A stretch of DNA of 64,000 nucleotides from Cloeon dipterum (lineage: Eukaryota > Arthropoda > Insecta > Ephemeroptera > Baetidae): NCBI RefSeq assembly GCF_949628265.1, contig NC_088789.1, forward strand, positions 32,729,883 to 32,793,882, in the 5' to 3' direction. The stretch's first letter is position 1. Each line of letters begins with the position of its first letter. The notes below the pieces were generated by a model. The model saw only the letters and a program-made list of their open reading frames with translations. It had not been told where the DNA came from and searched no databases. Shown in pieces: positions 1 through 64,000 of this stretch. A program made the position numbers and the translations under genes.

Positions 1-500
1 AGAACTGCGTGATTTCACCTGGGAAAATGGGTAAATTTACATTTAAAAATTTAATCACTTTTACTGAAAAACTACTCGATAGTGGGAATAGCTCTGTTGT
101 CATGCTGCTGTCAAGCCTCTTGTCTTCGCCCAAACTGGAGAAAATAAAGCTGGAAGGAAAGTTTGAAGTGGAGGACTTGAGGGGCGTAGCCACCGTGATC
201 GAGCAGAAGAAGATCTTAAGGCAGTTGCAGTCCTTTCACTTGCGCCTGGCATACACCTACACCAGGGATTCAAACTTCAATATGGCCCACTTCAGGGCTG
301 CCGCAGGCCTGGCCAAGACTGCCTCTGCGTTCCTTCCTTTGCTGATTGACCTCCATCTTTCCATGATTGACAATAGCTTCTTTATTAACTTCTTCAACCA
401 AGTTTCTGGCCAGGTTGTGAACGAGAAATATGAAGATGAGGCTTTGAACAAGATGATCAAGGAGCACGAGAAATTCGGAGGTGCTGGTTTCAAACCATGA
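1..500 (+). CDS. F-box-like/LRR protein, 3' end only (LRR copy 1)
   Basis: This is the tail of a leucine-rich-repeat gene that begins beyond the left edge. Exon pieces are 2-30 (reading LRDFTWENG) and 83-500, ending with the conserved GFKP and stop. They are separated by a 52-base GT-AG intron (31-82). An open frame runs through the intron, but the exon upstream is in another frame, so splicing is needed. The protein part matches the last two exons of the complete minus-strand copy at 51925-53723 almost residue for residue, so the two are a recent inverted pair. Function of the family is unknown to me; the repeat region probably binds a protein partner. I see no lesion in the part visible, but whether the whole gene is intact cannot be judged. 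Confidence 0.8.
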   Translation, partial: NCVISPGKMGKFTFKNLITFTEKLLDSGNSSVVMLLSSLLSSPKLEKIKLEGKFEVEDLRGVATVIEQKKILRQLQSFHLRLAYTYTRDSNFNMAHFRAAAGLAKTASAFLPLLIDLHLSMIDNSFFINFFNQVSGQVVNEKYEDEALNKMIKEHEKFGGAGFKP

Positions 501-1330
501 ATCTGCTTTATTTTGATAATATTAAGTCTGTGAATTGATTTAACTTTGTGATGTGGAATTGAATTTTTTGGCAGGAATAAAAACAACAATAACAAAAAAG
601 TAATTAAATGGATCAATCTTTAAAATAATGATTTCTGCTATCGTTATAAAGAAAATTCACTAATCCGCACCCCATGATGCATATCCAATAGAGTGGCACA
701 AGTAACAGAGGCCTTGGGAATTGCACAAATTATCTCTTCAATATCAAATGAGGGTGGAAGAACTGTTCCTCAATAAATTATCTGAAAGAAATAATTTATT
801 ACTTTTTGTTAAAAACTGATGATTCCACATACAACTTTGAACTAACCAAGTAATTTTCAGTGATAAAATGGAGGATATTATGAAATTAAAGTCCTTTGCA
901 ACTGCTAGAAACACATCAAATTTATTTTGAATTTAAAAGAGAAACTGCGCATGTGAGCCTTAAATTTTATTGTTGAAAATCAGCTAGACGAAAGAAAGAC
1001 CCGATAAACCTTCATTTATTTCCTTCCTTCGAAAGCGAATTTTTCTCGGTTCGAGCAGTTAGGAAATTCTAAACGCGCGAACTGTTTCTCGCAGTGGATC
1101 AGTGGAGACGGCGCATAACTCGTCTTAATACAGGAAAGGAAATTTTGTTTTAAAATTATAATGCTGGTCTCCTCTGCAGCATATTAATTATGATATGTTT
1201 TTCACCCGACATATATCTAGAGCAGAGACATGAAATTCAAATTAGACAATATAAGCATAATTCGGAGAATCAAAAATGTCACTGAAAGGCGAAATTTTAC
1301 TTTTTGCTCACATGCGGAATTTAAATTTTT
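501..1330. repeat. Inverted copy of LRR 3' flank
   Basis: No gene is visible. Bases 501 to about 1110 are the reverse complement of about 51320-51900, and about 1110-1330 match about 50080-50260 in reverse. The roughly 1 kb between those two partner segments (about 50260-51320) is missing here. It therefore looks like part of one inverted segmental duplication that later lost or gained sequence. Confidence 0.7.
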
Positions 1331-1339
1331 CAATTTACG

Positions 1340-1976
1340 GCAGGAAAGAAATTGACAAATAATTTTAATTGATGAGATTTATAATTTTTTCTTATACACA
1401 TCGTTTCTCTGGGGTTTGAATTTTTATCTTCGTGGAGCTGCTCAGATCGTCTCATTGTCTTGCAGAAATATAAAAAATCTTTTAATTCATTATCAACAAT
1501 TTTTCCAAAATGTAATAATCTTGACACTGACGACGAGTGTTTGTCGATGCGCTGGCATGGTTTTGAGTTGTCGGCGCCGGCGATGAGCACGTGTCCGGCT
1601 GCTTGCCGACGGCCACGTCCTGCGCCTGTATAAACGGGCGCCGAGCGCGATGGCACTCGTGTTCAGCCACGGAAAACGCGCCTTCAGATGCTCAGCATCA
1701 CGTTCTTCACGCCCAGGTCCTTGCCGAAACAATCGGCAAATAAATTTGTATTACCACAGAAAACAAAACAGTTACAGCTGGAAGTCGTTGTTGGCAGTGA
1801 GCTGCTTCGGCAGCTGCTAGAAACTCTGACATCTGCAGATCGTCACGTTCTCCGCCAGTAAAAACTGGTGCCGCACGATAACGTTGTCGCCGCCCTATAT
1901 GCTCTTGTACCATAAATATTTTATTTTTTAAAGAAACGACAAAGGCACAGGCCACAGCTCGCTTTTGGCTCATCAT
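1340..1976 (-). pseudogene. Coding-like relic, inverted partner of 49560-50068
   Basis: Read on the minus strand, this stretch contains a GC-rich coding-like segment including FRQGPGREERDAEHLKARF and FPWLNTSAIALGARLY. The reverse-complement partner at 49560-50068 keeps the same peptide with few changes. Reading frames change several times and no credible start or full-length frame exists, so I call it a relic. The protein family was not recognised. It belongs to the same inverted duplication as the left-edge LRR copy. Confidence 0.4.
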
Positions 1977-1999
1977 TTTTAATTGCTGCTGTGAGCCGC

Positions 2000-3540
2000 A
2001 CGAAAATTGAAGTTAAAGCAGTTATTAATGCACAATTTTTGTGGCGATCAGTCCAAATCAAACAAGATCACCGGCTCAATTTGAAGACAATATACGTTAC
2101 AAGTATATAAATTTATCTCATCAGAATTATCTTAATCAACAACTATATAGTGAAATCTAATCAAAGTCAAAATTAATATTCCCTCAATCATTTTGAATTT
2201 ATTAGACCTAAAAAATTGTATTACATTTGAATAACTTTATAAATTAGTGTAGTTCGATTTTTACCGAAACCTCATTATGTCATTATTCATCACGCTAAAT
2301 TTGATTTTTTGCTAGGCTGATTTTTCTGATTAGATTTTTCGTGATTTTAAGTTACGTCCGCGAGCAATTAATTGATAGTACAAAATTCAATTCGTGCCGA
2401 TCAAAAAATATATAAATTAACGTAAGAAGTGTGTTCACTACATATTGCGAACAGAATTAATTTCCCGAATTATTTTGGCGCCATCCGCTCTATGTTGACG
2501 CAAACTTACCTGGCTACGGCTAAACTTGCTTCTGCGACACGCGAGCTTGATTTAGGTTTCGGGAATAATTATTGTTTGCTCCTCTTGTGGTGACAGAGAT
2601 TGTCTCTTCGGTCTGACGGCGTAATAAAAGAAGGGCGGTGGCGGTCAAGAAGTTGAAGAAGGCCCTTCACGATATGGCTCGTCGCCAGGTGGAGCAGCTG
2701 AGCTGAGCTGGAGGCTGCCCTCCGGAGGTGGGCCTCCTGCTGGCCGCCTTCCTGGCCGCACCTCCAGTTACCTCGACGCCGCCGCCCCCGACGACTCGCT
2801 TCTCCTTGACGCGCAAGAACGCATTCGGGAGGTAAGATTTTAATATCGTATTATATTGAAACCGCTTCAAAATGTGTTCAAACTTTAATTTTCACATCGT
2901 CTTTAAATAGTGCAAGTAAGTCAAGCCTGTGAATTTATGCAATCGCGTGAAAATGACTGCTTGGGAGTGTTTTTTTTATCGCGATTGCATCGCTGCGGCA
3001 TCGGAATAGGCCGAGAGTCGAGGCGAAATTAACGCGCGGTCGGATTCTTATCTGACTATCACGAACATGCTTAAAGCCAGTTCCAATCTTTTTCTGCCTC
3101 GCATTATTATATAGATTAAAACTCATCCGCTGGAGTGGCTGAAGTATTTTTAAGGTTTAAAATAAAAAATTTAATAACAAGAAAAATCTAATTTCTTTGA
3201 ACTCTATTAAGAAAAACCAAAATACAATTAGGTTAAAAAAGCAACAAATTGGCTCTGTGCTGTGCCGCGCGCCTTGAGCAACGATCTGCGACACGGTTAT
3301 CTACAGTTTTAGAGTCTTCAAGCCGTCACTGCTTATCACTTAAATGTAGGAAATTTATTCAGAAATTAGTTTCCAATTTCACCTTGAGTCGTGGTAAATC
3401 GCCTTCTCGAAAATCCCAGCTGCGTTTTCCACCATCACGACTCTTATCTTAAAAGGAGGTAGAAAAGCGCCAAAACAAAGCTCTTTAAAAATTATTATTT
3501 GCTTTAAATGCCCATTACTGAGTGTGCAATCTGGCCTCAA
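2000..3540. other. Intergenic, with a GC-rich coding-like patch
   Basis: Mostly AT-rich and featureless. Bases 2638-2831 stand out as GC-rich and coding-like on the plus strand: the peptide KKLKKALHDMARRQVEQL is open, is followed by a small repeat (gagctgagctgg) that changes frame, and the patch ends in a good donor (gaggtaaga, donor GT at 2832). It may be a decayed exon, but no partner exons were found. Confidence 0.3.
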
Positions 3541-4147: not shown

Positions 4148-7100
4148 TTATCTTTTAAACACTCCTTGCTGCGCAGCACGAAGAAAGAACTCTCTCATGA
4201 CATCATCCTTCAATAGCTTGAAGCCATCACTGTTCACAACGGCATCCATGTGCTCCATGCAGAAATTAAAAACGAACTCCCTAAGTTCCTAAAGAGAAAA
4301 GAGAGAGTCCCGTTAAGAAAATTTATTATGAAAAGTATAACAACCTCGGCAGCAAGTTGAATTGCTTTATCGTAAATCGACGCTGCTTTTTCTACGGTTA
4401 CGCCTCTTTTGATAACTTTCAAGCACTCCTTTTGAAGATCAGTCATATGATAGAAGTGGGCCAGGACGAAAAGCTCTTAATTTTCAGTTAATCATTCAAA
4501 AACAGAAACCAGTGCAATTCAAGTTCTTTACCTAGAGCCAAATCTGGCTGTGGATCAACCTCGTTCGTGTAGAAGTATCTCAAAAAGGTGTAAAACGAGT
4601 CGTAGCTGTGATGCTAGATGATTTGCTCACTTAAGTAAAGTTGAGTTTTGGTTCAGTCAAAGATAAAATAATTACCTTTGGTTGCTCTCTTTCCAATTAC
4701 CCTGGAACATTGTCCTGAAGACTACGCATCGCATTATCAGAATCGCTTTGTGCGCGTGGATTTTCTTTCCCTCGACAACGAAAACAACGTCAGCAGTATC
4801 CTAATCCACGACGATTAAAAGAAGGGTTTTACATTTTTAAATCATAAGTGTAATATTCCTTACGGCGTCATCAAAGGATTTCTTGAGCCATTCATAACTT
4901 TCGTTTGCTGTGTTCATTTCTTCTATCGGTTTTGGATGCAATGGTCGGAATGTCAATGCCGGAATTGGCAGTTTCGCAAAAACTTCATCCAGCGAAATGA
5001 ATGAGGTTTCTATCGGTCTCAAAATGATATGGCCTAAAAATTGAATTCATGATTGGAATTGTTCAAATGTTTTTAAAGATTCAAACTCCTACCATTGAAG
5101 CTACCCCATACGTAAATTTCATCTGCTTCTGTGACTACGGCACTTAGATGTAACGTGATATGAGCAGCTACGTCTCTTATCCTATCAACAAACAAAATAA
5201 TTGTTTATTTGTAAAAAAAAAATCTAGTAAATGTTTCATTCACTCAGCACTTATTAATATAACTGTCCTTTAAATTTCAAATGACCTGCCAATAATTCCA
5301 GACATCAAAGTTGGCCGGTGTGAATTTTCTTTGGTTTCATTTCCAAGTTGGCCATATTCGTTCCATCCCCAGGAATAGACTTTTCCATCGCTAGACAGAG
5401 CCAGGACATGATTTGCGCCACAAACGATTCTTGTAATGGTGATGCCTTCCAAGCCGGGCACTTTGCGAGGAATGTTTTGCTCCTCCACGTTGGCACTTTG
5501 GCCCAAAATGCCATGTACATTGATCCCCCAAGCAAATACCTTTAGAGTGAATGATCCAATAATTAGAATAATTAACGAGAGGTAATAGAGAATTAATATT
5601 TTCATCTTAAACCTGTAGAATAAGCAGCTTATTTGAAAATATTTCCTTATAGCTTTTATATGTCACGTTTTATGTTGATCTAATTGTAAGAATAATCGAA
5701 AGGTTAATATCCAAACTATTTTCCCGAGAGTGACCCATGGTTCATTCAAGAGGCAGAAGCAAGAGGAAAATGATTCTTCTCCAAGGATTATTTCTCAGTT
5801 ATTTTAGAAATATTTTTCAGATTAATCAAGATTAATCAAAAGTTTATCATTGGACAAGAAAAAGCGTGACATTTGTTAGCCAGAGGATAGTAAAAAATCA
5901 TTTTTTATTTATCAGCGGGGTCTGATTCGTGCGACGCGCAAGATATGACGTCCGGTATGGCGCAAAAAAAAAACGGTCGCACGTAAAAATGCGCGAAAAG
6001 AACCGAGTCTCGATCAGTATTGTGACGCATAATTTGCATTACTCTTAACTAATTGTGTCTTTTGGATCGTAAACACAAACTATTTCTTGACACTCGTACG
6101 GCAATCGAAAGAGAGCTTTTCTGCTTCCCACATTCAGACGCTATCCTGGATATGCGCAGTGGCAACCAATTTTATCGCACATCTGGAACCCCCCGCTGTG
6201 ATTTTTAATCTTTGGCGAAGTTAGTTTTACCCGAGTTATTTTTGGACTGTATATTTTTTGCGGGATACTGTTTAAAAACAAAGACTCGTTAAAATATATA
6301 AGATTCACCTCGCCTGAGTCGAGGAGTGCTACAGATGAGAAAAAGAGACAAGCGATGGCAATCACAACTCCCTCAGCCGATGGAAAGTCCAATTTTACCG
6401 GAAGAGTTTGGTCTTCATTGTGTCCAAGGCCCAACTGCCTGTACTGGTTACGACCAAAGGAGAAGACCTTTAGAGTGGGGTATTGGAAAATGTGAATCAC
6501 TTTTAATTGCATTTATTTTATTTAAACCTCTCTATCCGATGTTAAAACCAGAGTATGGTTAGAGCTGCAGGCTACTTGCACGACCCTTTTTGTTTCCAAA
6601 ATTCCTCCTATTTTGGTTGGAATCCAGGTGTATTTTTTCGTACCCAGTCCAAGCTGGCCATAGTCATTTTTTCCCCAGGCGAAAACGGAGCCGGAAGCAG
6701 AAATCGCAAAAAACGTATATTTTGACGTATGCAATACTGAAGATAAACATCGCGTATTATTTCTGAGTTGCATCAATAATTAAAAAAAAAAACGAATTTC
6801 TTTAAGCTTTACCTTGAATATTTTGTCCGCACAATTGTTCAATCTTTGTTTGCTCTGTGCGTGGTTTCCTGTCGCCAGTACCAAGAAATCCTTCATTGTT
6901 GCCAAAGCCAAAAACTTCATCATTTTCCGTCACGTAAATTGCGCTATCATCTACGAATTTTCAATAGCACTAATGGAAGGATTTCCATTGAAACTGAGGA
7001 ATTACACTCAAAGCTCTTAATTCAATTGCAAGAATCGAATGGAAACTAAATACTATAGCTTACAGCATCAGTATTACACAACATATATAATACTACCAAT

Positions 7101-7244
7101 TTTTCTTACTTGATTTAGCCATTGAGAGTTATTGTTAAACAACAGAATTAAAAGCTTACTAAATACGACCGAAAGTCTGATAGTCCTCTTCAGTTCATCA
7201 CTCAGTCCTTGAAATATTTTCCACTTATCCAAGCTGTCAGACAT
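4148..7244 (-). pseudogene. RCC1-repeat and BTB protein, copy 1 (nonsense in BTB region)
   Basis: Eleven exons on the minus strand: 7160-7244, 6813-6950, 6528-6736, 6309-6467, 5286-5539, 5093-5181, 4864-5033, 4676-4800, 4532-4629, 4345-4475, 4148-4288. The start MSDSLDKWKIF matches all paralogues. Exons 2-6 give RCC1 beta-propeller blades (VFGFGNNEGFLGTGD, VFAWGKNDYGQLGLG, VFSFGRNQYRQLGLG, VYSWGWNEYGQLGN). Exon 8 starts the BTB domain. All exon phases agree with the intact copy 2. In exon 9 the codon that is GAG in the others (ATC ATC GAG) is TAG at 4614-4616, about codon 415 of 533, so the product would lose most of the BTB and the C-terminal part. Intron 4 is swollen by a transposon at 5913-6198. 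It could still make a truncated propeller protein, or the stop could be a sequencing error. Confidence 0.85.
5913..6198. mobile_element. hAT-like MITE, copy A
   Basis: A 286-base non-coding element with inverted ends starting CAGCGGGG and ending CCCCGCTG; inner end sequence also matches (TCTGATTCG against a reversed CCAGATGCG type). A second copy lies at 26101-26376 in reverse orientation. Short ends of the form CAG...CTG and 8-base flanks (ttatttat / tgattttt, imperfect) suit hAT elements. It sits in the fourth intron of RCC1-BTB copy 1; copy 2 lacks it and has only a roughly 120-base intron there. Confidence 0.65.
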
Positions 7245-10595: not shown

Positions 10596-12002
10596 ATGGA
10601 ATTCTCCGCGATGAAATCTTTGGAAGAAAAAATAAATTTCGTCATGAAAAACAGAGGTGAAACTCCGATGTTGCTTTTCGCCTCCAAAGTGGGTGATTTG
10701 GAAATTTGCCGCTATTTCGTGGGAATAGGGGCCCACGTCGTCGGCACCGTGGACAAAAGAGGCTCCAACGTCTTCCACTACGCCGCCAGGAACGCCGCGC
10801 ACGGCTTGCAACTGCTCGAATTCTTTGCGAGCCGCGGAGCAGACGTTAATAGAAAAAATGAGAATGGTGAGGGAGCGGAAATCGTTGCCGTCAAAGAGGG
10901 AAACTTCGACTTCGCCATCGCACTGTTCAACAAAAGATCATATTTTATGAGGGATATCAGCTTCTTGGAATACTGCACCGCCTATGAGGTCAAACTGGAC
11001 TTATTGAAGTCTTTGTACGAGAAAAACGCGTCCGTGGGAAACGTGGACAACAAAATCGACTTGTACTGTCTGATTCCCGCAGCGGCACGGTACAGAGACT
11101 TGGACACCATGAAGTGGGTCGTCGAGATCTGCAGTCGCAGCTCGGAATATAGCACTCATCATGTGAGAAAAGGAATTCTCCTTCTGGCTCTAAAGGCATG
11201 CGGAGACAACATGAAGCACAGCGAGCAAATCGTTAGGTTTTTAATGGAAGAGTGCAGTCTGGAACTTTTGCCGACGGATTTGGAGTGTCTTCTGAAATCC
11301 GCATTTTTGAAAGGAAACATTCCAATGGCAGATTATCTGATGAAGAAGCATGGCGCTGATATATTGGATAAAAAATCGTTTCTTGAAGATCTCATCAGCG
11401 ATGAAAACGTGAAGGCCGAGAGCATTGGAGAATTCCTCAATCTGGTCGGGAAGAAGATGGATGAGCTCCTCTCTTATCCCCTCCACTTTGCTTCTCAGCA
11501 TTCGAGACCTGATGTGTGCGAATGGATGGTCCGTCAGGGCTTTGACGTGACTGCTGTCGACAGAGCCACGTTTTGCACGGTTCTCCACTTTTCTCTTTTG
11601 AATGAATCGCACGGATTGGCGAACATTCGATTCTTTGCCCCGAAAATGCCCGTGAAAGACATGAATCGAAAGGATTTTCTAGGCCGAACGGCGCTTCACG
11701 TAGCCCTCGCCCAAGAAAGACATGATGTTGCTGACGAACTGATCAAATATGGCGCCGATTTAGACGTCGATTTTAAAGGATGCAATCTGCTGCTGTATTG
11801 CGTGGGAAGAAATACTCTGTCCAGCGCCAAGTTTGTGTACGCAAAAAAGAAGAGCTTGGTCGATGGACTAGGACCAGAAGGAAAGATCGCTTTGCACATC
11901 GCCAGCGAGTTAAAAAACAAGCACATGCTCCAGTGGCTGAGGAAAATCACCACCCTGACCTTGACGCTGAGGGAAATGCTCGAGAATATTTTATCACGTT
12001 AG
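10596..12002 (+). CDS. Ankyrin-repeat protein ANK1, copy 1 (468 aa)
   Basis: A single long coding exon (exon begins near 10558 after a cattatag acceptor) starting MEFSAMKSLEEK. No signal peptide or membrane segment is visible, so it is probably cytosolic or nuclear. The ankyrin-type helices are degenerate but clear: ETPMLLFASKVGDLEICRYF, NVFHYAARNAAHGLQLLEFF, YPLHFASQHSRPDVCEWMV, GRTALHVALAQERHDVADEL, GKIALHIASELKNKHMLQWL. Ankyrin stacks bind other proteins; no enzyme domain is present. It is in the opposite orientation to the two other copies and is the most divergent of the three, which differ in length by only 2-3 residues. A polyadenylation signal AATAAA lies at about 12047. The 5' UTR introns argue against a retrocopy. 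A later in-frame ATG could be used, but MEFSAM is conserved in all copies. Confidence 0.9.
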   Translation: MEFSAMKSLEEKINFVMKNRGETPMLLFASKVGDLEICRYFVGIGAHVVGTVDKRGSNVFHYAARNAAHGLQLLEFFASRGADVNRKNENGEGAEIVAVKEGNFDFAIALFNKRSYFMRDISFLEYCTAYEVKLDLLKSLYEKNASVGNVDNKIDLYCLIPAAARYRDLDTMKWVVEICSRSSEYSTHHVRKGILLLALKACGDNMKHSEQIVRFLMEECSLELLPTDLECLLKSAFLKGNIPMADYLMKKHGADILDKKSFLEDLISDENVKAESIGEFLNLVGKKMDELLSYPLHFASQHSRPDVCEWMVRQGFDVTAVDRATFCTVLHFSLLNESHGLANIRFFAPKMPVKDMNRKDFLGRTALHVALAQERHDVADELIKYGADLDVDFKGCNLLLYCVGRNTLSSAKFVYAKKKSLVDGLGPEGKIALHIASELKNKHMLQWLRKITTLTLTLREMLENILSR

Positions 12003-12039
12003 ACCAACATCAAAATTTACTGTGATTTTTACAATCAAA

Positions 12040-26829: not shown

Positions 26830-27197
26830 TTCCAATGTCACGACTCTTTGGACAGTTTTCAAGCACTCCTTTTGCAAATCAGTCGTGCAATATAAGTCGG
26901 CCAAGGCGAAAAGCTCTTATTTATGCATAATTATTCAAAACAGAAACCGCAGTGCAATTCAAGTGTTTTACCGAAAGCCAAATCTAGCAGCAAATCAACC
27001 TTGTTTGTGTAGAAGTATCTCAAAAAGGCGTAAAATACATATCGTAGCTGTGATGCTCGATGATTTGCTCCCTAATTTAGAGTTGAGTTTTGGTTAATTC
27101 AAAAGTTAAAATTAATTACCTTTGGTTGCTCTCCTTCCAATCGCCCTGGAACATCGTCCTGAAGACAGCGCATCTCATTATCAAAATTGCTTTGTGC

Positions 27198-28126
27198 CAT
27201 AGGCGATCGGTGCATGTAAGTGGGTCAAGGGTCACTTGAGGTGTCCAAAGGAGGCAGGAAGGAAAAATTCCTAAATTACAATTTTCCTGGCCAAATTTTC
27301 CTTTAGTCGCTATATATTTCAGTCTGCAGGCTACCCGCCTGCTCGCTCTAGAGCGCAAGCACACGAGCGCATGCGTACTAGCGACCCGTGTGCTAGGCTA
27401 GTGCCACACGAATCCACGGGTTAAATCAAATGGGAAATTGGGACCAATCAGCGACCTCCAAATTTAACACGTAAAATCCCATAAGCAGCAAGTGGTAGCC
27501 AAAGTCACTTAAAAGTGGTGGGAGAGCACGTGAATGTGACAGCGACTTCAATTTTTTACTTGTTTTGGTTCAATTATTGATTGCAAAAGCTGATTGCTGA
27601 TTGAGAATTACAAAACAAGCCCGTCTGTCAAAATGCTGAATTAAATATTATAAAAATATGGAACACGAAGAAAATTTGGTTAGGGAAATTGTCGTGGCTG
27701 TCGAGTTTAAAATGCGCTCGACAAACACCTAAATTTTTGCTCTTCAATTGATTAAAATTAATTGTGACAGCAAGGAAATTTGAATTTGTTTGTTGAGCAA
27801 TTATTTTATAAAAGTGAGTGAGTTACAAAGTGAATATTTTACTATTTTAGTCAAAAAGTAGATCTTCTCCAATAATGAAATTTGTGCGCTCTTATTACTA
27901 TCTATAGTTTTGGATCTTGAATAAAGAAATCACTTTTACCTTTTAAATATAAACAAAACTAAAATAATTTAATTGTTATATACTATGAACTTTTTCTTTA
28001 CAATTTCATCGGGAGGTTGTTGTATATAGCATTTATTTACGGTTTATATATGTGGTTTTTTCCGGTTTTTTCCACGATATTGGCCACTGCCACTTGAGGT
28101 GTATCCAAATCCACCGATCGCCTATG
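27198..28126. mobile_element. Non-autonomous hAT element, 929 bp, with perfect TIRs and TSD
   Basis: Exactly inverted 15-base ends, CATAGGCGATCGGTG and CACCGATCGCCTATG, flanked by a perfect 8-base duplication CTTTGTGC (27190-27197 and 28127-28134). The empty site exists in RCC1-BTB copy 3 as a single ctttgtgc at about 17384-17391. Near both ends a cacttgaggtgt motif occurs (27233-27244, 28091-28102). No transposase frame was found, so movement would need an enzyme from elsewhere. It interrupts the BTB-coding exon 8 of copy 4. Perfect ends and flanks indicate a young insertion. Confidence 0.9.
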
Positions 28127-31075: not shown

Positions 31076-31241
31076 GTAAGGGGCACAGTTGCCCTGCTGA
31101 CTCGCAATAAAATCATTTTGAATCTAAGTCTGTTTCATGAGAAATTTTACTATAGGCTCAATAAGAAACAAAATGAATTAAAAGTTGTCCGCGAACTAAT
31201 GCGGAATTTCGCCAATGCTTGGTATGTATTAGTTCAAGATT
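31076..31241 (-). pseudogene. Copied 3' end of the Yellow gene (fragment 1)
   Basis: Matches 20360-20517, the Yellow 3' flank and final codons, including gcggaatttcgccaatgct. The match stops at caagatt, where the Yellow frame continues in the original but ANK1 downstream flank begins here. It is too short to code and marks the edge of the duplicated segment. Confidence 0.8.
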
Positions 31242-50900: not shown

Positions 50901-50916
50901 AATAAACCAAATTCAT

Positions 50917-51080
50917 GGTTTGAAACCAACACTTCTGAATTCCTGGTACTCCTCGATCATCTTCTTCATAGCCTCGTTTTCAATGATCTCGCTCACAAGC
51001 TGGTCAGGGGGATTCATGGAAAGATGGACGTCAATCAGGAGAGGAAGGAACGCAGAGATATAGTCTTGGCCAGGCCTGCG
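50917..51080 (-). pseudogene. F-box-like/LRR protein, copy 5 (C-terminal relic)
   Basis: Minus-strand remnant of the last LRR exon: FLPLLIDVHLSMNPPDQLVS followed by EAMKKMIEEYQEF and GFKP-stop. Only about the last 55 codons remain. It is more diverged from the other copies than they are from each other, so it is an older loss. Confidence 0.75.
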
Positions 51081-51924
51081 AAAGCTCTCTGCTTTAATGT
51101 CAGTTGAAAGATATCATAATTAAAATATGCTGCATACTGCAAAGAGGCTTCATCATTTATTATAATATTAGACTGGATGATTTTTTTAAAACAATTTCTT
51201 TTCCTGCATGACGAGTTATAATCATGCACGGTCGAATTTCGTGCGGCAGAGGATCGGATCGTGGATGATGTGATTGGACACGGAGGTGGCATTATGTCAT
51301 TTTTGACCAATTGTCAGAACGTAAATGGTCCTCCACTGATCCACTGCGAGGAAATAGTTCGCGTTTAGAATTTCCTAACTGCTCGAACCGCGAAAAATTC
51401 GCTTTCGAAGGAAGGAAATAAATGAAGGTTTTTCGGGTCTTTCTTTCGTCTAGCTGATTTTCAACAATAAAATTTAAGATTCACGTGCGCAGTTTCTCTT
51501 TTAAATTCAACCTAAATTTAATGTGTTTCTAGCAGTTGCAAAGGACTTTAATTTCATAAGATCCTCCATTTTATCACTGAAAATTTCTTAGTTCAAAGTT
51601 GTGTGTGGAATCATCAGTTTTTAACAAAAAGTAAAAATTATTTCTTTCGGATATTTTATTGAGGAACAGTTCTTCCACCCTCATTTGATATTGAAGAGAT
51701 AATTTTTGCAATTCCCAAGGCCTCTGCTACTTGTGCCACTCTATTGGATGCATCATGGTGCGGATTAGTGAATTTCTTTATAACGATAGCAGAAATCATT
51801 ATTTTAAAGATTGATAAATTTCATTATTTTCTTGTTATTGTTGTTCATTCCTGCCAAAAAATTCAGTTCCACATCACAAAGTTAAATCGGTTCACAGACT
51901 TAATATAATCAAAATAAAGCAGAT

Positions 51925-53723
51925 TCATGGTTTGAAACCAGCACCTCCGAATTTCTCGTGCTCCTTGATCATCTTGTTCAAAGCCTCATCTTCATATTTC
52001 TCGTTCACAACCTGGCCAGAAAGTTCGTTGAAGAAGTTAATAAAGAAGCTATTGTCAATCATGGAAAGATGGAGGTCAATCAGCAAAGGAAGGAACGCAG
52101 AGGCAGTCTTGGCCAGGCCTGCGGCAGCCCTGAAGTGGGCCATATTGAAGAGTGAATCCCCGGTGTAGGTGTATGCCAGGCGCAAGTGAAAGGACTGCAA
52201 CTGCCTTAAGATCTTCTTCTGCTCGATCAGGGTGGCTACGCCCCTCAAGTCCTCCACTTCAAACTTTCCTTCCAGCTTTATTTTCTCCAGTTTGGGCGAA
52301 GACAAGAGGCTCGACAGCAGCATGACAACAGAGCTATTCCCACTATCGAGTAGTTTTTCAGTAAAAGTGATTAAATTTTTAAATGTAAATTTACCCATTT
52401 TCCCAGGTGAAATCACGCAGTTGTGGGAAGGCATTCGCGCCTTCATCTGAAATGATGACGTTCTTCAAGCGAAGTTTTTCCAGTCGCGAACAGCATTCCA
52501 AAATGCATCCGAACGTTAATCCTTCCAGTGACCTCATGGAATTGTCCATGATGTGGAGCGTGTGCAGGTTCTGTCCGTAAACTCTCATCAAACTATCCAA
52601 GTCAGTCAGTTTGCAACTTTTCAGAACCAAGGTCTTCAAGTTTGAAAATTTATCGAGAGTTTCCACTCCAAAATTTATGAGGTAGCCGTCCACCTACAAA
52701 ACAAGATTGATATTCATGCGAAATTGAGACTTAATAAAAATTACCAGCAAGCGAGTGATGAATGGGTGCTTGAGGTGGAGCTCCTCCTTGCCATCAACGA
52801 ACTGTCCATCATAATACAAACATAGGAATTTTCTTCGCTGATTCGGCGTTTTGTCTTCCTCCTCTTGCAGACGAACAGTTGTGTCCTCATCCCGCTGTGA
52901 GGCGTAAATGTATTCCAGATGAGGGACAACCCTTGCAAAAAACGACAGGAGACGAATATACCCATTTTCGTCTTCAAGCACTCTCAGGTGCTGCAGGGCT
53001 CTTGAAAGGTCGTTTCCACAGCCAGAATCTTCCATGTCGATATCGAGGGTTTTGACGCCTAAAACCCGAAGGTTCGGCAAAGCCATGCACAGCTCAATTA
53101 ATCCGTCAAGGTCAATGTGGCAACATCCAAGCCGCAATATCTTCAGCTTCTGCATTTTTGTCAGAGGCTGCAGCAGGTCCTGAATGTTGAGCATGGGGGA
53201 ACTCTTCATCGACAGCTCTTCGATGTTTGGCGCGACTCGAGCCAACAACTCGCAGACCTTTAACAGAGGTGATTTCAAATTTAGAATATATTAACAAAGA
53301 AATTTGAAATTTGCACACCTGGATAAACGAGCTCTGGATTTCGTAAAACGGGCAAAAGGTGAACATGTTCGTAAAGTCAACAGAGACAGTCCACTGGCCG
53401 ACCAGGTGTGCCAGCGCCAGCATCATCTTCTCAAACTGCTCCAAATTTCCATTTCGGGCAAAACACCTCCACTGCAAAATCCTTTGCAATATTTTCTCGC
53501 GAATTGGGGAAGCTACGAAACAGACGAAAAAATTTTAAACTGTCGACACATGAAACTTGGTAATTAACTTACGTAGGTTGAAAGCATTATAAAGTTGGAA
53601 ATTTGCGGCAACGAACTGCAGCGCCAGATCCTCCAGCCTCTGCTTCCTCGCCAGATTCTGGAGCCTGACTTTGGTCAACTCCACTAACTGAACATCGCTT
53701 CTCTGTTGTTGCTCGGCGCTCAT
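51925..53723 (-). CDS. F-box-like/LRR protein, copy 3 (intact, 524 aa)
   Basis: Five coding exons on the minus strand: 53573-53723, 53319-53512, 52745-53257, 52395-52693, 51925-52342; GT-AG, in phase, 525 codons. The start MSAEQQQRSDVQLVELTKV lies one base after a tttctgcag acceptor, implying an upstream 5' UTR exon. Residues about 50-65 (NLPSPIREKILQRILQW) resemble an F-box (LPxxIxxxIL). Leucine-rich units follow (LKILRLGCCHIDLDGLIEL, LKTLVLKSCKLTDLDSLMRV, LEKLRLKNVIISDEGANAF). No signal peptide, so intracellular. F-box/LRR proteins recruit substrates to SCF ubiquitin ligases; the F-box call here is weak and rests on pattern only. It is the near-identical partner of the left-edge copy. Confidence 0.85.
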
Positions 53724-53759
53724 GCTGCAGAAAATGTACATCATTAATAGTCAATCTAT

Positions 53760-54500
53760 ATCTACTACGATTTTCATGGACATCCATTGCCACGCACCAG
53801 AATTATTTCGTGATTTTAATCCGAAACAAATCCTCGAAATCATCACAGAATTAGAAAAATAAACTCGCGAGGATCGCAGCTAATAAGTCTTTGGGCTATT
53901 TACCTGAACAGACGTGAGATACTGCTCAAATTCCTGAGAGTTTTCAGCAAAAATTGAATCGATCAAACACAAAAAACAATAAGTAAATATGGCCGACGAC
54001 GCTCAAAGCACAGGCGCCGCTGGACTAAAAAAGGGGATTTGAACGAGGAGTTAGGGTAAAAGCTGCAAGAAGCTCAAATTCCATCAAATTTTGACTGAAA
54101 TTGCCGCAAGTTTAATTAAAATAATAAAATTCTCGTTCTTTAAAAATTAATTTACATTCATTAATCATTCTTGTAGCTCACGTACAAAGGTGCTATACAT
54201 TTCTCCGCAACGCACACCCCATCGCCACGCGCCTAGTTGGCACGAGTGCCGCGCCGAAACGCCCGTGTGGCGATTGGCGATCATTGTGCTATTTGTAAGG
54301 ACCAATGAGATTGCTCAATTTATTTTTCTCATTGTTAGCAGGCGCGAAAGGAACCATGGTTAAAGGGCGCCTAAGAATTTTAGTTCTTTGAAGATTCTTT
54401 CACGATTTTTTGTATGTAGCATTTGTTGGAAGAATTCCTTAAATAAATGCTACATATGTACAGCTTCATTATTGAGTCAAAATTCGCTACATACAGTATA
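53760..54500. repeat. LRR upstream flank (shared by three copies)
   Basis: Aligns with 36400-37130 and 62350-63060: a 5' UTR donor (tcaggtaaat reversed), a conserved ATGGCCGAC start on the plus strand at about 53989, an inverted CCAAT region (ggaccaatgagattgctca) and caaaggtgctatacatttctc. It is the likely promoter region of the LRR gene. Confidence 0.55.
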
Positions 54501-54539
54501 TTACTATAATTTTAAACAATAATCAATAATCGGAACTGA

Positions 54540-54778
54540 ATTTCCAAAATTTATGTAGTTTACGGATATGACGCCGCAGAAAAATCATCCGATTTCTTTT
54601 AAAATTAGACAAGAAAAATCTAATAGAAATGTTTTAAATTTCCTTCCCCTTGGTCAAACTCTGATGCGCCCTGTGTCCTGTGTGATACCACTGCTTGCGC
54701 GCTCCGGATTTGATATCTCTCTATTTTCTACATCAATTGCGAGCAATTTTCCTCAGGCAAACAGCTTTTAATTTAAAG
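54540..54778. other. Unique insert between two duplicated blocks
   Basis: This piece is not shared with the parallel block near 29.6 kb or with the LRR flanks. No domain recognised in its open frame at 54568-54771. It sits exactly at the joint between the LRR flank and a truncated RCC1-BTB copy. Confidence 0.4.
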
Positions 54779-55261
54779 AACTGCAACCCTAAATCAAAAC
54801 ATGCCGTATTTATTTGGGAGTCACGTCAATAATTAATCCTTAAACTTCACCTTGAATGTTTTGTCCGCACAATTGTTCAATTTTGGTGTGCTCTGTGCGT
54901 GGTTCCTCGTCGCCAGTACCAAGAAATCCTGTTTTGTTTTCCCCAAAGCCGAAAACTTCATCATCTTTCGTCACGTAAATTGCGCTTCCTTCTTTAAATG
55001 TTAAATAGCAAAGATCAGAGGATGCACATATTGAAATCAATGAATTTGGCAGCGGGAAGTGGAAATTAAATAATAGTAAAATGCACCACCCAATTCAATA
55101 TATATAAATTATTAATTTTTTACATTATACAAGGCTATTTAAAGCTATGCAAAACAAAATAAAACTAATAGCTTACCAAATACGACCGCAAGCCTGATAT
55201 TCCGCTTCAGTTGGTCGCTAAGAACCTGAAATATTTTCCACTTATTCAAGCTGTCCGACAT
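54779..55261 (-). pseudogene. RCC1-repeat and BTB protein, copy 5 (exons 1-2 only)
   Basis: Exon 1 is 55177-55261 and exon 2 is 54851-54991, with good splice sites and an open frame (EGSAIYVTKDDEVFGFGENK). The first few bases of exon 3 (ggttgcagttc reversed) are reached before the copy ends at about 54779. A truncated fragment, cut at the edge of the large duplication. Confidence 0.9.
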
Positions 55262-55992: not shown

Positions 55993-56165
55993 ATGTGGAT
56001 GTAAGGGGCACAGTTGCCCTGCTGACCGCAATAAAATCATTTTGAATCTAAGTCTGTTTCCTGAGAGATTTTATTATAGGCTCAATAAGAAACAAAATGA
56101 ATTAAAAGTTGTCCGCGAACTAATGCGGAATTTCGCCAATGCTTGGTATGTATTAGTTCAAGATT
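55993..56165 (-). pseudogene. Copied 3' end of the Yellow gene (fragment 2)
   Basis: Same segment as 31076-31241 and 20360-20517, again ending at the word caagatt and again followed by ANK1 downstream flank. This shows it was part of the block before the block itself was doubled. Confidence 0.8.
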
Positions 56166-56550
56166 ATCATTGCAAATGTTTTTCTCCCAAAATCTGACGC
56201 CAGAACCTGCAACAAGAGCATTTCCAACAGCTCCTTTGTTGCGGTGTTAATTGTAAATTCTACTTTTCCAACTATTATTATTATTAATTTTTTGCGTTTC
56301 CAACAATTAACATTGCGAGAAAAATGCCTGGCACAAGAGTGGAAACTGCCGCCGTGTGTACGCTCTTGATGCGCGGTTTGCATATATCATTCAAAGCAAA
56401 TATAACTATTGCGTGGTTCTAAAAGCTCCCAGTTTTTCAAAATGAACTGAAATTAAAGATATATATCGCACATGAATCCCTGAAAAAATTCACAGGATTA
56501 TTTATTCAAGAAATTTTACTGTACAAATCACAGTAAATTTTGATGTTGGT

Positions 56551-57951
56551 CTAACGTGATGCAATATTGTCGAGTATTTCCTTCAGCGTCAAGGTCGGGG
56601 TGGTGATTTCCCTCAGCCACTGGAGCATGTGCTTGTTTTTTAACTCGCTGGCGATGTGCAAAGCGATCTTTCCTTCTGGTCCTAGTCCATTGACCATGCT
56701 CTTCTTTTTTGCGTACACAAACTTGGCGCTGAGCAGCCTGTTTCTTCCCACGCAATAAAGCAGCAGATTGCATCCTTTAAAATCGACGTCTAAATCAGCG
56801 CCATATTTGATCAGTGCCTCGGCCATGTCCAGTCTTGTTTTGCAGAGGGCAACGTGAAGCGCCGTTTTGCCTAGAACATCCTTTCGGTTCATGTCTTTCA
56901 GGGGCATTTTCGGGGCAAAGAATCGAATGTTCGCCAATCCGTGCGATTTATTCAAAACAGAATAGTGGAGAACCGTGCCCAACGTGGTACTATCGACAGC
57001 AGTCACGTCAAAGCCCTGACGGACCATCCATTCGCACACATCAGGCCTCGAATGCTGAGAAGCTAAGTGGAGAGGATAGATGAGGAACTCATCCATCTCC
57101 TTTCCGGCCAGGTTGAGGAATTCTCCAATGCTCTCGACCTTGACGTTTTCATCGCTGATGAGTTCTTCAAGAAACGATGATTTTCTATCCAATATATGAG
57201 CGCCATGCTTCTTCATCAGATAATCTACCATTGGAATGTTTCCTTTCAAAAATGCGGATTTCAGAAGAAACTCCAAATCCGTCGGCAAAAGTTTCAGACT
57301 GAACTCTTCCATTAAAAACCTAACGATTTGCTCGCCGTGCTTCATGTTGTCACCGCTTGCCTTTAGAGCTGAAAGGAGAATTCCTTTTCTCACATGATGA
57401 GTGCTATATTCCAAGCTGCTTCTGCAGATCTCGACGACCCACTTCATGATGTCCAAGTCTCTGAACCCTGCCGCTGTGGGAATCAGATATTTCAAGTCGA
57501 TGTTGTTGTCCACGTTTCCCACGGACGCGTTTTTCTCGTACAAGGACTTCAATATGTCCAGTTTAACCTGATAGGCGATGCAGTGTGCCAAGAAGCTCAT
57601 ATCCTCTGATCTTTTGTTGAACAATGCAATGGCGAAGTCGTAGTTTCCCTCTTTGACGGCAACCATTTCCGCTCCCTCACCAACGTCATTTTTTCTTTTG
57701 ACGTCTGCTCTGAGGCTCGCAAAGTATTCGAGCAGTTGCAAGCCGTGCGCGGCGTTCCTGGCGGCGTAGTGGAAGACGTTGGAGCCTCTTTTGTCCACGG
57801 TGCCGACGACGTTGGCCCCTTTTTCCACGAAATAGCCGCAAATTTCCACATCGCCAACTTTGGAAGCGAAAAGCAGCATCGGAGTTTCACCTCTGTTTTT
57901 CATGACGAAATTTATTTTTGCTTCCAAAGATTTCATCGCGGAGAATTCCAT
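56551..57951 (-). CDS. Ankyrin-repeat protein ANK1, copy 3 (466 aa)
   Basis: One uninterrupted minus-strand coding exon. The open frame extends 26 codons further upstream to 58029, but that part is mostly the 5' UTR intron, so I start at MEFSAMKSLEAK, as in the sister copies. Ankyrin signatures: ETPMLLFASKVGDVEICGYF, NVFHYAARNAAHGLQLLEYF, GKTALHVALCKTRLDMAEAL. Differences from copy 2 are mainly scattered substitutions with no frame damage, which suggests that the protein sequence is under constraint. A TATA-initiator promoter lies at about 58800-58835. Confidence 0.9.
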   Translation of the reverse strand: MEFSAMKSLEAKINFVMKNRGETPMLLFASKVGDVEICGYFVEKGANVVGTVDKRGSNVFHYAARNAAHGLQLLEYFASLRADVKRKNDVGEGAEMVAVKEGNYDFAIALFNKRSEDMSFLAHCIAYQVKLDILKSLYEKNASVGNVDNNIDLKYLIPTAAGFRDLDIMKWVVEICRSSLEYSTHHVRKGILLSALKASGDNMKHGEQIVRFLMEEFSLKLLPTDLEFLLKSAFLKGNIPMVDYLMKKHGAHILDRKSSFLEELISDENVKVESIGEFLNLAGKEMDEFLIYPLHLASQHSRPDVCEWMVRQGFDVTAVDSTTLGTVLHYSVLNKSHGLANIRFFAPKMPLKDMNRKDVLGKTALHVALCKTRLDMAEALIKYGADLDVDFKGCNLLLYCVGRNRLLSAKFVYAKKKSMVNGLGPEGKIALHIASELKNKHMLQWLREITTPTLTLKEILDNIASR

Positions 57952-59152: not shown

Positions 59153-59159
59153 GTAAGTT

Positions 59160-60515: not shown

Positions 60516-62328
60516 TCATGGTTTGAAACCTAAACTTCCAAATTTCTCGCACTCCTTGAAAATCTTGATCATAGCCTTATCAATATGCTCCTTAACCAAC
60601 TTCATCTTAATCATTTGGTTGCAGCTGGCAAAAAAGAAGCCGTTGTAAAGAGAAAGAGAGACGTGAATCAGTAAAGGAAGGAACGCAGATGCAGTCTTGG
60701 CCAGGCGTGCGGCAGCCCTGAAGTGGGCCATGTTGAAGTTTGAATTCCAGGCGTAGGTGTATACCTTGCGCAAGTGCAAGGACTGCAACTGCCTCAGGAC
60801 CTTCTTCTGCTCGATCAGGGTGGCTAAGCTCCTCAAGTCCTCCACTTTGTACTTTCCTTGCAGCGTAATGTTCTCAAGTTTAGGCGAAGACAGGATGCTC
60901 GACAGAGGCATGACGCAATCGACATCCTTACTGTGGAGAAATTATAAATAAGTGATTACATTTTTAAAATAAAAATTTACCTATTAACCCAGGAGAAATC
61001 TCGCAGTTCTGGGAAGGCATCTGCGTCTGGAATGATGACGTCGCTCAAGTCAAGTTCTTCCAGTTGCAGACCGCATTCAGAAATGCGTCCGAACGTCAGT
61101 CCTTCCAGTGGAGTGTCGGGATCGGCAAAGATGTGGAGCCTGCGCAGTTTCTGTCCGTAAACTCTCATCAAATTGTCCACGTCGGTCAAATCACAGCTTT
61201 TCAAAACCAAAGTTTTCAAGTTTTGAAATTTATCCAAACTATCCACTCCATATTCGTTGATGAAAGAACCGCTCACCTACAAAAGAAAACTCATATTTAA
61301 ACAAAATTACGTGCATTATATAATAAATTACCTCCAAGTGAGTGATGAATGGGTAATTGACGTGGAGTTCCTCCTTGCCATCAATAGACTCACCACCAAG
61401 GCCCAAATATAAGACTCTCCTTCGCTGATTTGGCGTTTTGTCCTCCTCCTCCTCGTGCAGACGGACAGTTGTGACCTCGTCCCGCTGCCAGGTGCAAATG
61501 CAGTCCAGCTGAGGGGCAACCCTTGAAAAAACCGACAGGAGAAATGGGCACCAATCATCCTTTTCAAGCACTCTCAGGTGCTGCAGGGCTCTTGAAAGGT
61601 CGTTTCCACAGCCAGAATATTCAATGTCGTAATAGAGACATCCGACGCTCAACACTCTAAGACTTGGCAAAGCTTTGCACAGCTCAAGTAATCCGTCACG
61701 GTCAAATTCGCAACATCCGAGCCGCAGAACCTGCAGCTTCTGCATTTTTGTCAGCGGCTGCAGCAGGTCCTGAATGATGAGCTTGGGATATTCACTCGCC
61801 ATCGACAATTCTTCGATGTTTGGCGCGGCTTGAACCAACAACTCGCACACCTTTAACAGAGCCGCAGCGCGGTTACAAATTTATAATAATTCAACTTAAA
61901 AGATGAAATTTGCAGACCTTGATAAACGAGCTCTTGATTTTTTCACTCGGGCAAAACGTGAATATGTTCGTAAAGTCGACCGAGACAGTCCGCTCGCCGA
62001 CCAGGTGTGGCAGCGCCTGCATCATCTTGTCAAACTGCTCCAAATTTCCACCATAATATGGGACAAAAAATCTCCACTGCAAAATCCTCTGCAATAGTTT
62101 CTCGCGAATTTGAGAGCCTGTGAAACAGACGGGTAATTTTATAACTGTCATCGCATAAAAACTAATAAATAACTTACGTAGGTTGAAATCTTTATACAGT
62201 TGGAAATTTGCGGCAACGAACTGCAGCGCCAGATCCTCCAGCCTCTGCTTCCTCGCCAGATTCTGGAGTCTGACTTTGGTCAACTCCACTAACTGAACAT
62301 CGCTTTTCTGTTGTTGCTCGGCGCTCAT
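60516..62328 (-). CDS. F-box-like/LRR protein, copy 4 (intact, 526 aa)
   Basis: Five coding exons on the minus strand: 62178-62328, 61918-62117, 61332-61850, 60981-61276, 60516-60930; in phase, 527 codons. Exon 2 ends at a less usual donor (atcaag/GTCTGC), where the sister copies have cag/GTGTGC. The start MSAEQQQKSDVQLVELTKV follows a tttctgcag acceptor. The F-box-like part is NLRSQIREKLLQRILQW. LRR units include LQVLRLGCCEFDRDGLLEL and LKTLVLKSCDLTDVDNLMRV. Two extra codons occur around FVPYYGGNLEQF in exon 2. No signal peptide. It is the intact counterpart of broken copy 2. Confidence 0.83.
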
Positions 62329-62601
62329 GCTGCAGAAAATGTACATAATTAATAGTCAATCTATATCTACTACGATTTTCATGGACATCCATAGCCACGC
62401 ACCAGAATTATTTCGTGATTTTAATCAGAAACAAATCCTCGAATACATAATCATCACAGAATTAGAAATATAAACAAACGAGGATCGCAGCTAATAAGTC
62501 TTTGGGCTATTTACCTGAACTGACGTGAGATACTGCTCAAATTCCTGAGAGAGTTTTCAGCAAAAATTGAATCGATCAAACACAAAAAACAAAAAGCAAA
62601 T

Positions 62602-62706
62602 ATGGCCGACGCCGCTCAAAGCACAGGCGCCGCTGGACTAAAAAAGGGATTTGAACGAGGAGTTAAAGTAAAGTCTGCAAGAAGCTCAAATTCCATCAAA
62701 TTTTGA
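62602..62706 (+). other. Small divergent ORF upstream of LRR copy 4
   Basis: A 34-codon frame, MADAAQSTGAAGLKKGFERG and onward to a stop, starting about 90 bases from the LRR 5' UTR exon and pointing away from it. The copies at 53989 and 36658 keep the ATGGCCGA start but shift frame within it. It may be the first exon of a lost divergent gene, or simply an open stretch at a two-way promoter. Confidence 0.3.
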
Positions 62707-63436
62707 CTGAAATTGCCACAATTTCAATTTAAATAATAAAATTCTCGTTCTTTAGAAATTCATTTACATTCATTAATCATTCTTGTAGCTCACGTACAAA
62801 GGTAATATACATTTCTCCGCAACTCACACCCTATCGCCACGCGCCTAGTTGCCACGAGTGCCGCACCGAAACGCCCGTGTGGCGATTGGCGATCATTGTG
62901 CTATTTGTAAGGACCAATGAGATTGCTCAATTTATTTTTCTCACTGTCAGTATAGGCGCAAAAGGAACCATGGTTAAAAGGCGCCTAAGAATTTTAGTTC
63001 TTTGAAGATTCTTTCACGATTTGTAGCATTATTTGTTGGATGAATTCTTTAAATAAATGCTACATATGTACAGCTTCATGATTGAGTCATAATTCGCTAC
63101 GTATTATTATAATTTTATAATAAATCTATCATTACATTTAATGGCAGCTAAACTATTATTTGGAAAGTGCAGAAATAAACAAAATTACATATTATCTAAT
63201 ACGCAGTCTTTTCATCTCAAAACCAGCATTTTAAACGGTTGTTTACTAAAACTCCATACGATTCCTGAAAAAAATTTATTACTAAAATGGCCAAGAACAT
63301 GTGTATCATTGTAAAGCATTTAAAAAAAATGATTACCGCTGTAATCTTGGCATTACTACTGGTCTACTATCAAAATTCTTTTCACACGCTCCAAGAATTG
63401 AGGCTTAAAACTATTTGCATTGTATGAAGCTAAATG

Positions 63437-64000
63437 TTATTGGTTATCGATGTTCAAACCGCAAATCTCAAAATATAGTGAAATAGCTTCGTCAGCAGAT
63501 TCGGTATCATTCGGCTTCAAATCGTGTAATTCGCACACAAGCCACTGACGCATTTCCTCATTGCCATTGTTCCGGGCGATGAGCATTGCAGTCTTCCCAT
63601 TCTCTCCACTTGCCATGCTCTTGTCCAATCCGAAAACGAATTTAGCACTCTCCAGCTGATTGGCCGACACGCAGAAAAGAAGCAAATTGTGTCCTCCACA
63701 TTTTTCGTGAATGAGGGATTTGTTGTGTTCGAGCAGAACCTTCGCAAAATGTCAAGCTTTCCGAACTTGAGGGCAAGATGAAGAGCATTTTCTTCGTCGA
63801 CGTCGTCTTTGTAATAGGCTTCTCCTTGGTCAAGTTGCCCGATGAAGCACTGAATTATTTCCAATCCGTGAGCTTCGTTGAGCACAGCACGGCGTAAAAA
63901 TGAAACCTTTGTCATTTCGGTTGCAGTTTCAAAATTCAGCTTGGTCATCAGCCATTGGCACATTTCGACGTTTGCAAACTCTGCCGCGAGGGGTAAAATG
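63437..64000 (-). pseudogene. Ankyrin protein ANK2, copy 2 (3' part, frameshifted, runs off the window)
   Basis: Minus-strand equivalent of 37486-38050. Two extra A bases near 63747 (ttcgcaaaatgtcaagc, where copy 1 has ttcgcaatgtcaagc) split the frame into two overlapping pieces. Upstream of the shift the sequence reads MCQWLMTKLNFETATEMTK; downstream LLFCVSANQLESAKFVFGLD. The C-terminal end also differs from copy 1 (ICGLNIDNQ). The 5' two-thirds lies beyond the right edge, so the overall state is unknown. Confidence 0.8.

Follow-up and report, generated by a model that had tools for sequence, protein, structure and literature searches.

Why do copies of several repeat-protein families lie interleaved, whole beside broken, in one short stretch of an insect chromosome? 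We addressed this question in Cloeon dipterum, at C4:32,729,883-32,793,882 (the window, the whole stretch of 64,000 nucleotides). The assembly has 190.1 Mb in 10 contigs, and C1, C2, C3, and C4 measure 43.2, 37.5, 37.1, and 36.4 Mb. The window holds genes of the RCC1-BTB family, of two ankyrin-repeat families (ANK1 and ANK2), and of a leucine-rich repeat (LRR) family. An earlier reading of the window, made from sequence only, had proposed that these genes amplify together as a module. Our results indicate another origin: the array probably arose in a duplication hotspot of the distal arm, where expanded repeat-protein families meet, segments are copied with their contents, and the survivors diversify. 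The flanks were also read (200 kb on the left and 40 kb on the right, 304 kb in total). Flank positions are given in window coordinates, negative on the left and above 64000 on the right.

Duplicated Blocks and Gene Copies

Comparison of the window with itself gave 41 repeat pairs (at least 150 bases, E ≤ 1e-10), and 164 kb of the window with its flanks gave 162 (at least 250 bases, E ≤ 1e-15). The self-alignment with neighboring sequence, suggested by the sequence-only reading as a check, returned both tandem and inverted blocks, for example:

29857-34757 and 54777-59664, tandem, 94.6% identity
34758-38236 and 60708-64192, tandem, 90.7% identity
9407-12393 and 34183-31242, inverted, 91.6% identity
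17380-20517 and 28125-31241, 93.0% identity
-2379..1107 and 54778..51331, inverted, 95.1% identity

The recent segmental duplication blocks are 83-97% identical, and the older RCC1-BTB copies about 69-80%.

Gene models were predicted with a purpose-written splice aligner, and "no lesion" means an alignment to the query without stop or frameshift. The self-comparisons and spliced models recovered the inventory given from sequence (five RCC1-BTB, three ANK1, five LRR, and two ANK2 copies), the five LRR copies being four genes and one exon-5 fragment. In addition, we found two gene types absent from that inventory, a yellow gene and a papilin-/ADAMTS-like gene. The genes of the window are as follows:

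1..497, plus strand: 3′ end of the LRR edge copy; exon 4 ends at 30, exon 5 is 83-497, gene start at -1303 in the left flank; no lesion
4151..7244, minus strand: RCC1-BTB copy A, 11 exons with a single in-frame stop, which lies within BTB
10596..11999, plus strand: ANK1, lesion-free in one open frame, orientation opposite to that of the other two ANK1 copies
13253..15719, minus strand: RCC1-BTB copy B, lesion-free over its 11 exons; RCC1 repeats and BTB, BACK below cut-off
16786..19637, minus strand: RCC1-BTB copy C, one frameshift
20479..22416, minus strand: exons of a yellow (MRJP) gene, passenger; last exon spans 20517/20518
26830..30343, minus strand: RCC1-BTB copy D, broken by a transposon (27198-28124), two frameshifts, and one stop
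31629..33023, minus strand: ANK1, no lesion
34758..36367, minus strand: LRR copy w1, stop, frameshift, and 3′ deletion at 34757/34758
37489..38919, minus strand: ANK2, first 128 residues missing, truncated at 38919, frame open
44497..47412, plus strand: exons of the papilin-/ADAMTS-like gene (spacer, TSP1, WAP), passenger
50916..51088, minus strand: LRR exon-5 fragment
51928..53723, minus strand: LRR copy w2, 5 exons, no lesion
54852..55261, minus strand: RCC1-BTB copy E, reduced to exons 1 and 2
56554..57951, minus strand: ANK1, no lesion
60519..62328, minus strand: LRR copy w3, 5 exons, 526 aa, no lesion
63458..64000, minus strand: ANK2, frameshift, cut at 64191 just beyond the window

Only copy B among the five RCC1-BTB copies (A-E) is free of lesions. 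In copy D, the BTB exon is split by a 927-bp transposon, and the 3′ end was not found in the stretch searched. All three ANK1 copies are open, and three of the four LRR genes are lesion-free, one of them reaching into the left flank. LRR copy w1 is chimeric: in exons 1-2 it is closer to u3 (dS 0.06) than to w3 (0.12), and in exons 3-5 it is closest to w3 (0.03). Both ANK2 copies of the window are truncated, and the four whole copies, open across about 600 codons, are all in the flanks. The block map and the lesion census agree with the sequence-only reading that the families are interleaved, that whole copies stand beside dead ones, and that joints are common to units.

The two further genes have domain matches: the yellow gene at 21.7-22.4 kb in Pfam (2.9e-20), and the papilin-like gene to spacer (2.0e-9), TSP1 (4.7e-13), and WAP (2.4e-11). 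The segment 38919-49191, which holds the papilin-like gene, recurs inverted at -22.3 to -11.7 kb, and the passenger blocks are 91-97% identical. In all, three further copies of this gene were found, at -18.7 kb (within the range of the inverted segment), C4:30.72 Mb, and C1:23.71 Mb (83-87% protein identity). Since the papilin-like gene has been duplicated too, it is segments that were copied and not a functional set.

Between -34.6 and -20.1 kb, two ANK2 units retain the sequence that precedes the LRR start before they change to the papilin segment. Their homology to the LRR unit stops at -29982 and -22445, matching -1378, and a possible LRR promoter region there adjoins another gene.

The Joint between RCC1-BTB and ANK1

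Two minus-strand units of the window share one order of genes. The middle unit consists of ANK2 (37.5-38.9 kb), LRR (34.8-36.4 kb), ANK1 (31.6-33.0 kb), and RCC1 (26.8-30.3 kb). The right unit consists of ANK2 (63.5-64.2 kb), LRR (60.5-62.3 kb), ANK1 (56.6-58.0 kb), and RCC1 (54.9-55.3 kb), with 91-95% DNA identity to the middle unit. Both contain the same joint:

31202..31282, no strand: RCC1|ANK1 joint of the middle unit, at 31241|31242, remnant of the yellow tail on the left
56126..56206, no strand: second copy of the joint, right unit, at 56165|56166

The joint is blunt, an RCC1-BTB segment cut within the last yellow exon being fused to an ANK1 segment. The remnant of the yellow tail lies to the left of the joint in both of its copies, which show a base difference next to it. 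Beside RCC1 copy C, the joint-flanking sequence runs on into the yellow gene in a frame across 20517/20518, and a yellow relative on C2 (L035) likewise extends past the joint point. Thus, the arrangement of yellow beside RCC1 is the older one, and that of RCC1 beside ANK1 is derived. Furthermore, the presence of the same joint in both units means that the fused block was copied. The joint came first and the block duplication second.

The ANK1 block at 9407-12393 is an inverted relative of the ANK1 side of the joint. Other breakpoints are the 3′ deletion of LRR w1 (34757|34758) and the truncation of ANK2 (38919). We also considered a single inversion of 12394-20517, both ends of which agree base for base with the RCC1|ANK1 joint. 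This was rejected because yellow reads natively across 20517/20518, as in L035, and that side is the older.

Selection among the Copies

The codon-model code was purpose-written; simulated omega of 0.3, 1.0, and 1.6 returned 0.24-0.36, 0.85-1.42, and 1.38-2.52 (8 runs each). By Nei-Gojobori counting (NG86), broken copies included, the pairwise ratios of nonsynonymous to synonymous change (dN/dS) were 0.78-2.05 for ANK2 and 0.64-0.88 for ANK1, and the ratio of the RCC1 repeats exceeded that of BTB in 20 of 21 pairs.

In the site models, the four whole ANK2 copies gave twice a log-likelihood difference (2dL) of 51.8 between M1a and M2a; M2a placed 30% of the sites at omega 5.3. When two damaged copies were added, omega was 1.61 (p 0.003) and 2dL 84.6 (6 copies). 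Within the whole copies, the counting omega of ANK2 was highest in residues 291-420 (1.61). For ANK1 (7 copies), omega was 0.76 and 2dL 59.2, with 8% of sites at 5.9. Omega and 2dL were 0.54 and 25.1 for RCC1-BTB (B, C, F, and G, of which C is frameshifted), and 0.82 and 16.4 for LRR (edge, w1, w2, and w3). Each of the four families favored M2a over M1a, with the LRR value within the reach of recombination. The sequence-only reading had suggested a comparison of dN/dS among the copies and suspected a fast-evolving cluster; the site models support that suspicion, strongly in ANK2 and ANK1 and more weakly in RCC1-BTB and LRR.

Because conversion among copies can mimic positive selection, triplets, which have one topology, and simulated nulls were also run. 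All four triplets of whole ANK2 copies gave p ≤ 0.001, and the four ANK1 triplets from four chosen copies (of 35 possible) gave p ≤ 0.012. For ANK2, the maximum 2dL was 1.7 in 12 simulations on one tree and 18.3 in 28 simulations with four recombinant segments. ANK2 thus shows strong site-specific positive selection, far above the recombination null. The site signal of ANK1 is also strong, and those of RCC1-BTB and LRR are weaker. The papilin passenger gave a raw ratio of 0.55, and it is a weak control because of few changes, uncertain exon ends, and one spacer-exon frameshift between copies.

These results bear on a possible though doubtful alternative, neutral birth-and-death in a duplication-prone arm, which would need only relaxed constraint. 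It would account for the many dead copies, the copied passengers, and the great expansion of the unrelated yellow family, and the gene-wide omega values of ANK1, LRR, and RCC1-BTB, with that of the whole ANK2 copies not significantly above 1, would also suit it. However, the nearly neutral model fails for the ANK2 sites by a margin much larger than the tree or the recombination null produced, ANK1 rejects it by likelihood and in all four triplets tested (of 35 possible), and four whole ANK2 copies have stayed open over about 600 codons.

Distribution of the Families

The locus lists were merged from the matches listed, further matches of the same gene being left out, and all counts are lower bounds. 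We found at least 120 ANK loci (110 on C4), at least 92 LRR loci (42 on C4 and 30 on C2), and at least 92 RCC1 loci (64 on C2 and 18 on C4). Within 10 kb, 12 of the 92 listed RCC1 loci are accompanied by an ANK locus and 6 by an LRR locus. Between 28 and 36.4 Mb of C4, 41 of 162 neighboring pairs of listed loci were of unlike family, against 85.2 in shuffles (0 of 10,000 as low); the RCC1 locus C2:35459697, counted in the 92, lies outside the stretches of this test. At 32.66-32.80 Mb, unlike neighbors made up 14 of 20 pairs, and the shuffle mean was 13.3. Thus, the mixing is local.

Among the matches listed, all three domain families come within 64 kb at two places and nowhere else, namely the surroundings of the window and C4:30.67-30.69 Mb. 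At the latter place the strand order is unlike that of the window: an ANK1 (71%) is lesion-free on the other strand. The LRR there is broken (4 stops and 8 frameshifts), and no BTB was found for the RCC1 in the 6 kb searched. In addition, at C2:3.585-3.659 Mb, six yellow (plus strand) and five RCC1 (minus strand) matches alternate strictly as a two-gene tandem array. The proximity of RCC1 and yellow over the whole of C2 was not significant (12 of 28 within 10 kb, rotation mean 7.5, p 0.16), so we restrict our claim to the alternating array itself. RCC1 was amplified with different neighbors in different places.

Distant LRR relatives, at about 25-30% identity, form more arrays near chromosome ends, at C4:34.9-35.2 Mb and C2:0.49-0.70 Mb; one of them, L030, was read.

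Could the four genes nevertheless form a functional module, for immunity or self/non-self recognition, kept together by selection and amplified as a unit? The single order and strand of ANK2, LRR, ANK1, and RCC1 in the middle and right units, the adjacency of ANK2 and LRR, which recurs four times, and the preference for M2a in all four families (with the limit given above for LRR) would fit such a module. But the link of RCC1 to ANK1 is a derived joint, the families are segregated across the arm, the strand order differs at C4:30.67 Mb, and no ANK2 and only one of five RCC1-BTB copies are whole in the window. We consider this explanation quite unlikely. The claim that the genes amplify together stands locally, where a fused block was copied and ANK2 and LRR are repeatedly adjacent, and is not supported across the arm, where the listed loci form separate arrays and passengers were copied as well. 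An immune or self/non-self role of the cluster is possible.

An assembly artefact, with uncollapsed haplotypes or misjoined repeats, is very improbable: high local identity and many inverted copies might suggest it, but the 304 kb contain no N, the recent blocks differ by 3-17%, have unlike lesions and neighbors, and are often inverted, and the joint is found in two copies that show a base difference next to it.

Domains and Predicted Function

The protein of copy B contains RCC1 in five stretches (183.1 bits) and BTB at residues 368-471 (78.6 bits), both above the Pfam cut-offs, followed by BACK at 16.8 bits (cut-off 20.9). Copy B has the RCBTB architecture, and RCBTB1 has been reported to co-precipitate with CUL3 (PMC10216830).

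For the LRR proteins, LRR_4 reached 27.0 bits, at the cut-off, in w3, and was not detected in u2. The profile search of the Protein Data Bank (PDB) gave weak matches to ANP32A and, in their LRR parts, to FBXL2 and FBXL5, the N-terminus being uncovered by the FBXL matches, and none to the VHL-box CUL2 receptors LRR-1, ZYG11, and PRAME. In these receptors, the BC-box consensus is (S,T,P)LXXX(C,S,A)XXXphi, with the Cul2-box consensus phiPXXphiXXXphi downstream (PMC4878042). The full BC-box pattern occurs in one of seven local LRR models (u2), the window copies differing at the first position, and in all four distant relatives covered there (L029, L030, L031, and L034; L028, L032, and L033 are uncovered). 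The Cul2-box pattern lies near residue 50 in five of the seven local models (u1, u2, edge, w1, and w2; not u3 and w3), and at the matching place in three of seven distant relatives (L029, L031, and L032). When one N-terminus was shuffled 20000 times, 3.35% of the shuffles contained a relaxed form of both boxes. These patterns are possibly a lead towards a VHL-box-type CUL2 receptor.

ANK1 and ANK2 are ankyrin-repeat proteins (Ank_2, 1.8e-25 and 2.9e-24), and the AlphaFold model of ANK2 (mean predicted local distance difference test score 73.5) matched ankyrin-repeat chains best in Foldseek. No ligase motif was identified in the ANK proteins. Taken together, the genes likely encode substrate receptors of cullin ubiquitin ligases, with domain support in RCC1-BTB and motifs only in LRR; for ANK this role is putative.

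Proposed Origin of the Array

Returning to the duplication hotspot, we propose the following course. Several repeat-domain families, already expanded, would have met in the distal arm, where segments of about 1-10 kb were copied in tandem and inverted orientation, carrying any genes they held (RCC1-BTB, ANK1, ANK2, LRR, or papilin-like). Copies have decayed through stops, frameshifts, truncation, and transposon insertion. The RCC1-BTB and yellow segment may share its origin with the yellow/RCC1 arrays of C2. The proteins would act as cytosolic substrate receptors of cullin-RING ubiquitin ligases: RCC1-BTB would bind CUL3 via BTB, LRR might recruit a ligase through its N-terminus resembling a BC-box and Cul2-box, and ANK would provide a binding scaffold. 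Surviving copies would diversify their binding surfaces, presumably in conflict with fast-changing targets. The binding repeats of the surviving ANK copies probably change adaptively, and perhaps those of RCC1 and LRR too.

Several observations weigh against this course. A second yellow relative on C2 (L036) did not align in the tail at the joint; of the two relatives checked, L035 alone showed native continuity, and the evidence for a common origin with C2 is protein identity only. In the Pfam scan of two spliced LRR proteins (w3 and u2), no F-box was found at E ≤ 1, and the label "F-box-like", given to these genes from sequence, is not supported; their match to the BC-box and Cul2-box is partial. 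Gene-wide omega of the four whole ANK2 copies is not significantly above 1 (M0 1.34, p 0.11), and its counting mean is 1.12 (bootstrap 0.80-1.70). Sites selected in ANK2 are not enriched in loops of the model: over its residues 9-460, loops take up 30 of the 98 selected sites and 104 of the 354 remaining ones (p 0.45). By likelihood, the contrast between the RCC1 repeats (0.57) and BTB (0.49) is small. Furthermore, the 2dL of LRR (16.4) falls inside the range of the ANK2 recombinant null and its set holds the chimeric w1, and the nulls were simulated for ANK2 only.

The process is of a known kind, and the instance is new, in families not usually named in such a process. A literature search gave no earlier description of an insect array of this kind, which is weak evidence of absence. 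The window provides a readable case of how a mixed gene cluster forms, with the order of events, and its passenger genes serve as a control against the reading as a functional module. Beyond the nematodes, ANK2 and ANK1 are animal candidates for adaptive conflict and offer codons to test. In addition, large uncharacterized families of ANK, LRR, and RCC1 genes were revealed.

Transposon, Repeats, and the Yellow Family

Two repeats were recorded:

27198..28124, no strand: 927-bp transposon with terminal inverted repeats (TIR), 10-bp target duplication, inside the exon of RCC1-BTB copy D
18475-18941, 20946-21276, and 29177-29648 of the window, 93.7-94.1 kb, 101.9-102.4 kb, and 376-770 of L025: dispersed repeat, both orientations

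The TIR transposon has 46 matches in the genome, itself included, of which 27 have E = 0 and 87-100% identity. The dispersed repeat, about 400 bases long and alignable in both orientations, has many copies in the 304-kb region. A search for tandem repeats gave no rows. The telomere-pattern search gave no matches, and since it skipped simple repeats it is not informative.

Insects usually carry one to two dozen yellow genes. Here 150 of 373 yellow/MRJP candidates were scored, giving at least 150 matches; 131 lie on C2, and some have stops. The family was recorded at C2:0.58-5.3 Mb and at 20479-22416 of the window.

Comparison with Known Systems

The yellow/MRJP multigene family of insects is represented in the array by a gene that marks the joint. 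In contrast to that family, yellow is a passenger here, and its expansion is on C2.

RCBTB1 and RCBTB2, described as CUL3 adaptors (PMC10216830), have the same order of RCC1 repeats followed by BTB, BACK being below threshold here. The difference is that at least 92 loci were matched here, many with stops in the matched exon.

The VHL-box LRR receptors of CUL2 (LRR-1, ZYG11, and PRAME), as described in PMC4878042 and PMC5216831, resemble the LRR proteins here in the N-terminal Cul2-box pattern of five of seven models, with an upstream BC-box in one. However, the window copies miss the first BC-box position, and w3 and u3 lack the Cul2-box pattern.

The F-box and MATH-BTB ubiquitin-ligase adaptors of Caenorhabditis, which form large families, have been reported to evolve by birth-and-death, with positive selection in the substrate-binding and not in the cullin-binding domains (PMC4334554, PMC12062965). 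Likewise, dN/dS of BTB lies below that of the RCC1 repeats here in nearly all pairs. However, no F-box or MATH domain was found in those proteins that were scanned here, and the likelihood contrast between RCC1 and BTB is small. It would be a bolder step, which we regard as rather improbable, to propose an intracellular recognition system in which unrelated receptors (RCC1-BTB, LRR, and ANK) deliver proteins of foreign or selfish origin to cullin ligases, diversifying next to one another in a rearranging arm. If true, this would be an animal parallel, in an insect, to the nematode families. The insect array differs from them in its families, RCC1-BTB, LRR, and ANK, which are interleaved by segmental duplication, and its ligase function is a predicted one.

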